In this document: positions 50,545 through 54,049 of the stretch, one piece after another
Numbering within the stretch: position 1 is the stretch's first letter
Layout of the letters: the number at the start of each line of letters is the position of its first letter
NCBI GenBank assembly: GCA_022562275.1
Contig: JADFPP010000001.1
Location: forward strand, 62,001 to 126,000
From: Bacteroidota bacterium
Lineage (GTDB): Bacteria; Bacteroidota; Ignavibacteria; Ignavibacteriales; Ignavibacteriaceae
DNA: 64,000 nucleotides
Direction of reading: 5' to 3'
The notes under the pieces: model-generated
What the model was told of the DNA's origin: nothing
Databases searched by the model: none
Seen by the model: only the letters and a program-made list of their open reading frames with translations
Program-made: the position numbers and the translations under genes

Positions 50545-51960
50545 ATGCCGCACAACCTTCAATTTGCCCAAAGTCTTTACGATGGTTATGAAACTTACAA
50601 GGAAAAAAGTTTATTTAACCGCCGCTTTAAACATTCAGATATTGTTCCTTTGATTGAACAATTGAAAAATAAAAATATATTTAAAGTTAAGAAAGTTGGT
50701 GAATCCGTACAAGGACGTGATATATTTTTGATTTCAATCGGAACCGGGGCAAAAAAAATATTTTGCTGGTCTCAAATGCATGGTGATGAGCCAACAGCAA
50801 CAGCAGCAATTTTTGATATATTCAATTTCTTCCTGTATGAAGATCATTACGTTGAATTCAAAAAATCATTGTTAAATAATGTAACCCTATTCTTTCTTCC
50901 TATGGTTAACCCGGATGGTACAGAGTTGTTTCAAAGATTTAACATTCTTGATATAGATTTAAACAGGGATGCGGCACGAAAACAATCACCGGAATCGAAA
51001 GTTTTATATTCGGTTTTTAATGAAATTAATCCTGATTTTGGATTTAATCTTCATGATCAAAGTAGAGAATATTCTGCGGGAATTAAATCGAGATCGGCTG
51101 TGATATCATTTCTTGCACCTCCATTTGATTACGCTAAAACCATTAATGATAACAGAACAAACTCGATGAAATTAATTAGTAAATTATATAACATTTTATC
51201 ACTAATGATACCGGGTCATATTGCAAAATACCAGGATGATCACGAACCAAGGGCATTCGGTGATAATTTTTCCAAATCAAATACAAGTATAATTTTAATT
51301 GAATCCGGTGCCTGGCGCGGCGATAGAGAAAAACAGTTCTTGAGGAAATTAAATTTTGTTTCTCTTCTTGCATTTTTCAAAAGCATAGCCGAAGATAGCT
51401 ACTTAAACGAATCTATAGAAACTTATTATTCAATTCCCCCCAATGAATCGTTAATGATTGATTGTATTATCAGGAATGTAACAGTTATAAAAGAAGGAAA
51501 TAAAATTGTTGTTGATGTGGGCATAAACTATGAAGAGATAAACATTGAAGACAACCGGCAATTCTATTATAAGGCAGCAATAGAAGACATCGGCGATCTA
51601 TCAGTTTATACGGGCTTTCGTGAATTTGATGCAATGGGAATGAGTCTGCAATTGGGAAAAACATATTCAAAAATATTCAATTCTCTTGATGAGATTAAAA
51701 AATTAGATTTTGCTTCTTTAATTGAAACAGGAGTTACTAACGTTAAGTTACGAGCCTCCAGCATAAATGAGTTATATTCTCCTGTTTTGTTCAACATCAT
51801 CTTAAATGATAAAGATAGAAAAGAAGAACTAAAACAGGAGGCGGTACCAAATTTTATATTAAAAGAAAATGATACGTTCAAGTGTGCTGTGATAAATGGT
51901 TTTTTGCTGGATTCAATTTCAATGCACTGGGATGAAGGAAACTCTCTTATTTTTAAATAG
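50545..51960 (+). CDS. M14-family zinc carboxypeptidase
   Basis: Predicted metallocarboxypeptidase. The zinc motif is HxxE in SQMHGDEPTATAA (His79, Glu82). The third ligand is His160 in FGFNLHDQSREYSAG. IDLNRDAARK supplies the substrate Asn-Arg pair (Asn130, Arg131), and Glu243 in ILIESGAWRGD is in the position of the catalytic Glu. The N-terminal ~290 residues form the peptidase; the last ~180 are of unknown fold. There is no signal peptide, so it is probably cytosolic. It resembles peptidoglycan/peptide deacylating M14 proteins of Bacteroidota. It is 20 bases upstream of the sigma-like fusion gene and probably co-transcribed. Confidence 0.85.
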   Translation: MPHNLQFAQSLYDGYETYKEKSLFNRRFKHSDIVPLIEQLKNKNIFKVKKVGESVQGRDIFLISIGTGAKKIFCWSQMHGDEPTATAAIFDIFNFFLYEDHYVEFKKSLLNNVTLFFLPMVNPDGTELFQRFNILDIDLNRDAARKQSPESKVLYSVFNEINPDFGFNLHDQSREYSAGIKSRSAVISFLAPPFDYAKTINDNRTNSMKLISKLYNILSLMIPGHIAKYQDDHEPRAFGDNFSKSNTSIILIESGAWRGDREKQFLRKLNFVSLLAFFKSIAEDSYLNESIETYYSIPPNESLMIDCIIRNVTVIKEGNKIVVDVGINYEEINIEDNRQFYYKAAIEDIGDLSVYTGFREFDAMGMSLQLGKTYSKIFNSLDEIKKLDFASLIETGVTNVKLRASSINELYSPVLFNIILNDKDRKEELKQEAVPNFILKENDTFKCAVINGFLLDSISMHWDEGNSLIFK

Positions 51961-51980: not shown

Positions 51981-53366
51981 ATGAATATTAAAACTTTTAA
52001 GAAAATCAGCGAATTAGATTTTGGGGAGAAAACTATTATACATCTCGACCAATTATTTACTTTCGCTTTATTAATTACAGGGGATTCCCGAAAAGCAGAA
52101 AAAATTTTACAAAGTACTTACGAAAAAGCATTTGGATTTTACAAATACCTTTCCGAAGAAACTAAAATCGAGGTATGGCTGTTCCGGATTATGTTAAACA
52201 TATTACAAAAATTATGGGATTCTGAACATCTTAATGATGATCTTGTATCCGATAATAAAAACCTGGAAACATCGGTATTAAATGCAGCGGGCGTTGAGAA
52301 AAGGTTTTTAAATAACTCTTCCATTGTATTAACACAACTAATTGCTTCTTTATCCTTTAAGTTGAAGGTTATTCTTGTTACGGCAAATGTGCTGAAATTT
52401 AATTACGAGCGGATTACCGATCTTATTGATTTGCCTTTAGGAACAGTAAAAAAAAGATTGTTTGATGCCAGAAAGATTCTGTTTGTTAAATCATTACCTC
52501 ATTCAACAGGATTAAAGGAAACAGAAGGGTTTCAAATTAATTCTGAAGATAAAAAGTTAATAACAACTTTAATCGATGAAAATAATAGTGACGAACTAAA
52601 TGATGAAAATAGAAAATACTTAAAACAAGAAATTGAATCTCAACTAATCATCAAGCAAATTATTGATGAAGAAATAAAAATAGAGCCTCTTAGATCGGTA
52701 ATAAAATTTAAGATTGCAAAAAAGTATGCACCGGAATTAAAAGACAAACTAAGGAATGAAGTTTCTTTAGAAAAGAGAGGTTTGGTTGTAGGAGCTACTG
52801 TAGCAATGATTATTCTGATTGCAGTTCTTATATTTATTTTCAAACCGGCGATTGTAAATCCCGGAGAATTTGCAGAGCAGCAATCAGGAGAGGATAATAT
52901 TTTCATACAACTGCAAAATAATTATTCGCTGTTCAATCAAGAATTATTTAATGAAAGCCTGATACTTAGTGATGCTGAATCTTTGAAAGCATTGTTGTCT
53001 TCTTCAGGTTCTGGGAATGAAACTATTCTCATTTCTCTTCCGGGCTGGAATTTAAAAGGATTTGTTCTAACAGAATTCAAAGGACATAAACTTGTTAATT
53101 TATTTTATGAAAATGGAAATGGGAAAATTTTATACTCCTACCCCGTGCCCTTAAATCTTATTGAAGAGACACACACTTTTAAACTAACTCGCAATTTATT
53201 AGAATATTTAGAATCAGGCAATTGCTACTCATCAAGAAAAGCAAACACCGTTTATTTATTGAAAAGATCGGCTAATTATATCCTGGGGTTTGCATTGGAA
53301 AAGCCAGAAAGAAAATTAATGATTGATATTTGCAATCAGATAAAGAATAGTACTTTCAATAACTAA
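51981..53366 (+). CDS. Sigma-factor-like protein fused to a membrane anchor and exterior domain
   Basis: Unusual architecture. Residues ~20-80 resemble ECF sigma region 2 (LDQLFTFALLITGDSRKAEKILQSTYEKAF, VWLFRIMLNIL). Residues ~115-170 resemble region 4 with a helix-turn-helix (LIASLSFKLKVILVTANVLKFNYERITDLIDLPLGTVKKRLFDARKILF). Residues ~195-265 are charged and helical, then one transmembrane helix (about 267-289, GATVAMIILIAVLIFIF) and a ~170-residue exterior part. The order sigma-linker-TM-exterior is that of a sigma factor and a membrane anti-sigma in one chain. Region 2 lacks the usual Trp/Arg-rich promoter-melting text, so it may be a degenerate sigma acting as an adaptor. 461 residues, intact frame, downstream of the M14 gene. 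Confidence 0.7.
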   Translation: MNIKTFKKISELDFGEKTIIHLDQLFTFALLITGDSRKAEKILQSTYEKAFGFYKYLSEETKIEVWLFRIMLNILQKLWDSEHLNDDLVSDNKNLETSVLNAAGVEKRFLNNSSIVLTQLIASLSFKLKVILVTANVLKFNYERITDLIDLPLGTVKKRLFDARKILFVKSLPHSTGLKETEGFQINSEDKKLITTLIDENNSDELNDENRKYLKQEIESQLIIKQIIDEEIKIEPLRSVIKFKIAKKYAPELKDKLRNEVSLEKRGLVVGATVAMIILIAVLIFIFKPAIVNPGEFAEQQSGEDNIFIQLQNNYSLFNQELFNESLILSDAESLKALLSSSGSGNETILISLPGWNLKGFVLTEFKGHKLVNLFYENGNGKILYSYPVPLNLIEETHTFKLTRNLLEYLESGNCYSSRKANTVYLLKRSANYILGFALEKPERKLMIDICNQIKNSTFNN

Positions 53367-53668: not shown

Positions 53669-54049
53669 TTGGCAAGAGTAAAAAACATAGTATCTTTTTG
53701 TGCATCCTGCAACACAGTACAGAAAATGGAAATAACGGGTGAGGTTGCAGGTGAAGGAAATGAAGAGAAAAGATGGGCTAAATGTAAAAAATGTAAACAG
53801 ACTATGATTATTGATTTAGATGTTGATGTTAAAGACAAAAAAGTTTCTCTTGAAGGTATAGAAAACGAAGATTGCACTACTTACTCTCCGGTAAAAACAT
53901 TTGAATTAGGAGAAACGATTTACCATCAGAACTGGAATGATTTTGGGAAAGTGGTTACAAAGGAAACTCTTTCGAACGGACAAAACTCTATAATTGTTGA
54001 GTTTCAGAAATCAGGCTCTAAAAAATTATTAGAATCATTACATAACTAA
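53669..54049 (+). CDS. Zinc-ribbon protein with Tudor/KOW-like domain
   Basis: Small protein of unknown function. The N-terminal half has two CxxC pairs, SFCASCNTV (Cys11, 14) and WAKCKKCKQT (Cys39, 42), forming a zinc ribbon. The C-terminal ~45 residues, FELGETIYHQNWNDFGKVV followed by NSIIVEFQKSGSKKLLES, resemble a Tudor/CarD-like beta barrel. The start codon is TTG at 53669, supported by AAAGGAT ~6 bases upstream and the natural zinc-ribbon N-terminus MARVKN. It lies 24 bases before rpsU on the same strand. A role near transcription or ribosomes is an inference from the fold and neighbour. Confidence 0.7.
   Translation: MARVKNIVSFCASCNTVQKMEITGEVAGEGNEEKRWAKCKKCKQTMIIDLDVDVKDKKVSLEGIENEDCTTYSPVKTFELGETIYHQNWNDFGKVVTKETLSNGQNSIIVEFQKSGSKKLLESLHN

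Follow-up and report, generated by a model that had tools for sequence, protein, structure and literature searches.

What does a sigma factor become once it has been joined to its own inhibitor? The usual explanation for fused sigma/anti-sigma proteins is that they are sigmas pending proteolytic release, and the gene at 51981–53366 (+) of the 64,000-nucleotide stretch of Ignavibacteriaceae DNA analysed here (the window) puts this explanation to the question. A preliminary description made from the letters alone had read it as a sigma-like protein with a built-in membrane anchor and an exterior domain. We followed the gene through its predicted structure, its critical residues and its relatives in a survey of 80 genomes of the same family. 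Relatives that bear names, Bacterium BMS3Abin03 and Ignavibacterium sp. bin94 among them, place the genome in the Ignavibacteriaceae.

One reading frame joins a sigma-like half to a membrane protein

The open reading frame (ORF) runs for 461 codons from an ATG start, and stop codons crowd the reverse strand. We found that residues 13–167 match NCBIfam TIGR02947 (SigH_actino; E=7e-16) and that the sigma part retrieves Mycobacterium tuberculosis SigH from the PDB (E=3e-11), so that the sigma-like identity first given to the N-terminus holds up against ECF sigma models. Both Pfam matches fall under their curated cut-offs (region 4, E=1e-4; region 2, E=0.014). Top Foldseek matches of the protein's model were all ECF sigmas, with the PhyR sigma-like domain also listed. 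The full-length AlphaFold2 (AF2) model (16-row alignment, mean pLDDT 80.5, pTM 0.51) divides the chain into sigma2 (residues 3–82), sigma4 (103–171), an anti-sigma domain (ASD, 188–260), a transmembrane (TM) helix (263–286) and a periplasmic alpha/beta domain (about 291–455).

On the forward strand of the window, the eroded sigma region 2 lies at 52017–52226 (residues 13–82, from TIGR02947, the subthreshold Pfam match, residue tables and AF2) and the region 4 helix-turn-helix at 52287–52493 (residues 103–171, from Pfam r4_2, the AF2 helices and alignment). These are followed by the ASD at 52542–52760 (residues 188–260, from alignment and RsrA matches) and by the TM helix at 52767–52838, which is evident from sequence as well as AF2 and is retained in 5/5 complete fusions of the same genus. 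That there is one such helix was foreseen; its position moves from about 267–289 to 263–286. The anticipated exterior domain is well modelled and corresponds to a periplasmic sensor-like domain at 52851–53363 (residues 291–461, from AF2 and Foldseek). Folded separately, this domain reached a pLDDT of 84 and a pTM of 0.82. It had no significant PDB match by Foldseek, the best-probability matches being RseB at non-significant values (probability 0.85–0.97, TMq ~0.38, E ~0.1–0.3), and residues 181–461 returned zero Pfam matches. In the same-genus genome G005, a second, partial version of the periplasmic part lies at a contig edge (G005:C5:3-302; 48% identity), a hint that this genome has a paralogous gene.

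Two simpler accounts of the frame were set aside. An assembly or frameshift artefact is ruled out by full-length fused ORFs of 438–461 aa in five independent same-genus assemblies. A separate anti-sigma made from an internal start is unsupported: the window gene has no in-frame ATG, GTG or TTG at residues 161–215, and in three other fused genes the equivalent region shows no more than scattered TTG and GTG codons.

The sigma half has lost its clamp contacts

Sigma regions 2.1/2.2 bind the RNA polymerase beta' clamp (PMC7406223), and SigH makes conserved beta' coiled-coil contacts (PMC6411747). The preliminary description considered region 2 degenerate, which the profile scores confirm. At 17.2 bits, the Sigma70_r2 match of the window protein is the weakest of 15 in its own genome, 12 of the others scoring at least 43 bits. 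This match is under the Pfam cut-off or missing in 5/5 membrane-anchored fusions, in all of which region 4 outscores region 2; a split ortholog scores 62 bits. Of the 84 sigma positions at which 24 canonical orthologs show at least 95% invariance, the fused proteins retain 24–37.

The losses include the clamp motif DxxQE, whose residues we take to be the actual clamp contacts by equivalence to sigma70 D403/Q406/E407. In the window protein this motif reads K41-Q44-S45, with Asp replaced by Lys, Gln retained and Glu lost, and its counterparts across the five membrane-anchored fusions are KxxQS, KxxMK, KxxSQ, KxxFK and KxxIK. Of the 11 fused proteins, every one has Lys in place of Asp and none keeps Glu, and nine have also lost Gln. 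The clamp Asp position is D, E or N in 22/22 ordinary ECFs from these genomes and never K, and the clamp Gln is missing in two of those 22. Because the contacts by which a sigma grips RNA polymerase are lost, the sigma half has probably ceased to be an ordinary sigma factor.

The region 2.3 Arg-Ile pair is mostly retained in alignments of the fused proteins, and the recognition helix is still basic. Window D162 aligns with SigH R186, and changes at −35-reading positions (S to K, R to D) were considered as a sign of lost DNA binding; this was dropped, since an ordinary ECF paralog in the same genome (L004) has both. Given the pattern in this paralog, region 4 of the window protein may just recognise a different site.

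An anti-sigma domain with a conserved, predicted sigma4 lock

The segment between the sigma half and the membrane, at first called a charged linker, corresponds in alignment to the cytoplasmic N-terminus of the separate anti-sigmas of relatives and is an ASD. Where the halves are separate, a sigma ortholog matches SigH_actino at 1e-58, and anti-sigmas match TIGR03988 RsrA at 5e-6 and 1.5e-8, values under that model's curated cut-off. A soluble fusion from the sister genus matches SigH (2e-10) and RsrA (1e-4) in one chain. Searched against the PDB, the ASD profile ranked RsrA first of all chains, if weakly (E=0.028). Neither the window ASD nor its split orthologs showed the zinc ligands HxxxCxxC in alignment. 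With a helical ASD, a cognate ECF and a conserved helix-1 Asp, the domain is of class I type without zinc ligands.

In a more distant relative in the phylum, a SigH-like sigma adjoins a 78-aa anti-sigma with intact zinc ligands (L184:474-1426; zf-HC2, 1e-11). As such a protein sits beside a similar sigma, a zinc anti-sigma is a plausible ancestor of the family, which would have lost the ligands since; the L184 pair could possibly picture the ancestral soluble, zinc-binding state.

The helix-1 Asp (D199, equivalent to RseA D11) is invariant in 20/20 rows of the ASD alignment, and its expected partner, the sigma4 Arg (R164, equivalent to RpoE R178), is retained in 11/11 fused proteins. RseA D11H abolishes inhibition in Escherichia coli, and the DNA-facing side of region 4 is normally masked by anti-sigma helix 1 (PMC7406223). 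Compared with solved sigma structures, the AF2 model fits anti-sigma-bound sigmas better than RNA polymerase-bound SigH: against the former, TMt was 0.74–0.80 for SigW/RsiW and 0.71–0.74 for RpoE/NepR (0.70–0.80 overall with CnrH/CnrY), and against the latter it was 0.37–0.47. Certain sigma/anti-sigma complexes that differ in topology likewise gave low scores. The model points weakly to a closed sigma/ASD form, its inter-domain signal coming from few fused rows at a pTM of 0.51.

The same locus carries two genes, one membrane protein or one soluble protein

The idea that an inhibitor and sensor had been fused to the sigma part is borne out by relatives that carry both halves as adjoining genes. 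In many genera of the family these are separate ORFs of ~190–204 and 276–281 aa, within the syntenic order AddB-like, CYTH, OMP, redoxin, M14 peptidase, sigma, anti-sigma, zinc-ribbon gene, LOG, DacB-like, SecG and Obg. In most other genera with the pair, this slot holds an ECF sigma, canonical and of SigH/SigR type, next to an anti-sigma that resembles RsrA and usually comprises ASD, TM and periplasmic part; in some genera a soluble ASD alone (~74–103 aa) is the separate anti-sigma. In the window genus, 5/5 complete loci are fused (461, 452, 450, 445 and 438 aa), and a sixth species offers only a contig-edge fragment. In the six genomes of a sister genus, the slot is occupied by a sigma–ASD fusion of 271–281 aa that stops where the TM would start and so has no sensor. 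The preliminary description had suggested a survey of whether orthologs keep the fusion beside the M14 gene: the five complete loci of the window genus do, and elsewhere the pair is split or, in the sister genus, fused in soluble form. One syntenic locus thus shows three states: two genes, one membrane protein and one soluble protein.

In a tree of M14 proteins, loci with TM-bearing and soluble fusions grouped together with 100/100 support. From this grouping we draw a single fusion event in the ancestor of the window genus and its sister genus, the most likely and best supported, if unproven, origin. The simplest history would be one fusion, after which the sister genus lost the TM and sensor. 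In eight of 27 split loci both ORFs are already in one frame, six of these with gaps of 0–15 bp, so that loss of one stop codon would be enough for fusion.

The M14 peptidase gene directly upstream (50545–51960, +; Pfam PF00246, 2e-14) is, by synteny and locus tree, a conserved neighbour and likely part of the same operon. It had been put forward as a possible functional partner: it does adjoin the sigma/anti-sigma pair family-wide, but it is also found without the pair in some relatives, so that a functional link is no more than a possibility. The window's M14 protein lacks the N-terminal signal-peptide-like segment of most relatives, as do those of G005 and G002, which have complete starts, and this suggests that the peptidase became cytosolic in the window genus. 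By-eye inspection of 34 regions upstream of the M14 operon revealed no evident common ECF-type promoter of the GGAAY...GTT kind. Directly downstream of the pair family-wide is a small zinc-ribbon/tudor-like protein (window 53669–54049), for which there is no confident Pfam family.

Relaxed but purifying selection, and erosion elsewhere in the family

Canonical sigmas of this locus evolve under dN/dS of 0.01–0.02, with ~66–98% identity between loci versus 36–82% for M14. Fused sigma parts share 29–49% identity where M14 shares 51–68%. In a close pair from the sister genus with soluble fusions, dN/dS was 0.16, and in an eroded split pair it was 0.20. Constraint on the sigma part, as measured in the sister genus, is therefore down about tenfold and still clearly purifying.

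Erosion has also taken place independently, without fusion. The separate sigma is eroded in one subclade (G039, G042 and G043) of genus g10, where the loci are L044:6956-7534, L050:7118-7720 and L161:5959-6561, and it is canonical in G040 and G044 of that genus; between G039 and G042/G043 the sigma is only 39–42% identical, M14 ~87%. Genus g23 likewise has eroded, unfused sigmas (L045:6227-6823 and L179:5389-5955).

A second sigma-like family lacks the clamp motif

The genome of the window contains two further ORFs of ~525 aa (L203:202-1776 on the reverse strand and L204:1163-2740 on the forward strand), in both of which a very weak sigma part precedes a charged segment, a single TM and a possibly FecR-like end. 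Across the order, the usual form of this second family is a sigma-like gene of 165–180 aa adjoining a membrane gene of ~400 aa (for example L256:399-890 and 887-2080); fused forms occur in several genera of the family to which the window belongs, and a single genome from a different family also has one. An intact DxxQE was found in none of 34 distinct aligned sequences of the second family, fused or split. That a clampless family has been long-lasting through the order counts against pure decay of the window gene.

Proposed mechanism and alternatives

We propose, with a probability of about 0.6, that the window protein is a pseudo-sigma which its own ASD keeps locked in cis following a two-gene fusion, and that it forms no holoenzyme. 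The starting point was a SigH/SigR-type ECF sigma paired with an RsrA-like, zinc-less anti-sigma, usually membrane-anchored. The pair most likely fused once, before the window genus and its sister genus parted. From then on the sigma half shed the residues with which it would contact the RNA polymerase clamp, along with a large share of the surface that reads promoters; the ASD and its sigma4-locking pair survived. The architecture, the two-gene origin, the residue losses and, in the sister genus, continued selection are observed, whereas the closed state, the loss of polymerase binding and the kind of output are inferred. What exists today would be a closed sigma fold tied to an inner-membrane anchor and a periplasmic sensor-like domain, and its output would run through protein contacts or region-4 DNA contacts, not through RNA polymerase holoenzyme.

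The main rival is that this is a working, membrane-tethered ECF sigma of the IutY/ECF52 kind, in which a periplasmic signal sets off two-step C-terminal proteolysis that frees an active sigma. The domain order is indeed that of IutY and ECF52, the sigma fold is still recognisable, the region 2.3 Arg-Ile pair is largely there beside a basic recognition helix, and a full-length frame has been maintained in five species. We nevertheless consider it unlikely, since the clamp Asp has turned to Lys and Glu is gone in every one of the 11 fused proteins, Gln is gone from nine, and the region 2 score has collapsed; moreover, split pairs of two other genera show like erosion, and the sister-genus fusion, having neither TM nor sensor, offers no anchor to cleave. 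The preliminary description had suggested release by proteolysis followed by transcription, and this does not fit broken clamp contacts in all fused proteins together with a preserved Asp/Arg lock and an anchorless sister form. Its fallback, a membrane-tethered DNA-binding adaptor, comes nearer to the evidence. A further alternative is a ToxR/CadC-like protein, in which the tethered region 4 helix-turn-helix would bind DNA as a one-component regulator under a periplasmic sensor, and region 2 would make no core contact. This agrees with the order of parts (cytoplasmic helix-turn-helix, TM, periplasmic domain), with the retained basic recognition helix and with the higher score of region 4 over region 2 in 5/5 fused proteins. 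Against it, region 4 normally has its DNA-binding side hidden under anti-sigma helix 1 (PMC7406223), the upstream regions inspected by eye yielded no target site, and the sister genus has dispensed with TM and sensor. We regard this ToxR/CadC-like reading as very unlikely.

The gene might also be a decaying remnant of a pair that lost its role, was fused by loss of a stop codon and is disappearing under weak residual constraint. Selection some ten times weaker than on canonical sigmas would be expected of such a remnant, as would erosion in three lineages and the fact that some relatives have M14 but have lost the entire pair next to it. Yet the frames are open and full-length in five species at 29–49% sigma identity, with the TM intact in all; dN/dS is 0.16–0.20 after erosion, the ASD Asp and the sigma4 Arg are invariant, and the parallel clampless family persists through the order. 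This makes decay rather improbable, and a pseudo-sigma held by its own ASD remains the reading we prefer.

Relation to known systems and significance

Single-chain sigma/anti-sigma proteins are already known (IutY, ECF52), and the window protein is a variant with an eroded sigma. IutY of Pseudomonas putida (ECF243) is a single-chain sigma/anti-sigma (PMC5411451, PMC8999054). The likeness lies in an N-terminal ECF sigma, a membrane anchor and a C-terminal periplasmic anti-sigma part in one polypeptide, with IutY-related systems consisting of two proteins. IutY serves iron-siderophore cell-surface signalling and has a working sigma, freed by Prc and RseP; the window protein, unlike IutY, is SigH/RsrA-type, has an M14 peptidase as its neighbour and carries a sigma half from which the clamp contacts are gone. 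An IutY-type FecR periplasmic part and a neighbouring TonB-dependent receptor are absent, the neighbours being the M14 peptidase and zinc-ribbon genes and residues 181–461 being free of Pfam matches. ECF48, ECF52 and ECF53 of Actinobacteria (e.g. SCO4117) similarly combine an ECF sigma, an anti-sigma-like segment, a TM and an extracytoplasmic part, but those proteins have a zinc-finger domain and, in ECF52, also a carbohydrate-binding module. Neither domain had a Pfam match in the window protein, which differs from these groups in its missing zinc ligands, its periplasmic domain and its eroded sigma.

The nearest sequence relatives of both halves are SigH and the SigR/RsrA pairs (ECF12-like). 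SigR/RsrA-type pairs are two soluble proteins that act as a zinc redox switch, whereas the window gene encodes one membrane protein without zinc ligands. PhyR, an anti-anti-sigma, offers another likeness, in that its sigma fold is no longer a sigma and binds an anti-sigma instead. It differs in being a response regulator that acts on NepR in trans; the window protein has its ASD in cis and no receiver domain. Searching the literature by text, we found no paper on fused ECF sigmas from Ignavibacteria.

We raise tentatively, as a possibility with the odds against it, that Ignavibacteriales have repeatedly converted ECF sigma/anti-sigma pairs into a signalling class of its own, in which a clampless pseudo-sigma is attached to a membrane anti-sigma, by binding or by fusion, and signals without holoenzyme; the window gene and the sigma/FecR-like family would be two independent cases. 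The loss of polymerase contacts alongside the retention of the inhibitor contact makes it a testable question whether a sigma fold can outlast sigma function as a signalling part. Sigma-70 family annotations in these genomes may accordingly include proteins that do not bind RNA polymerase.
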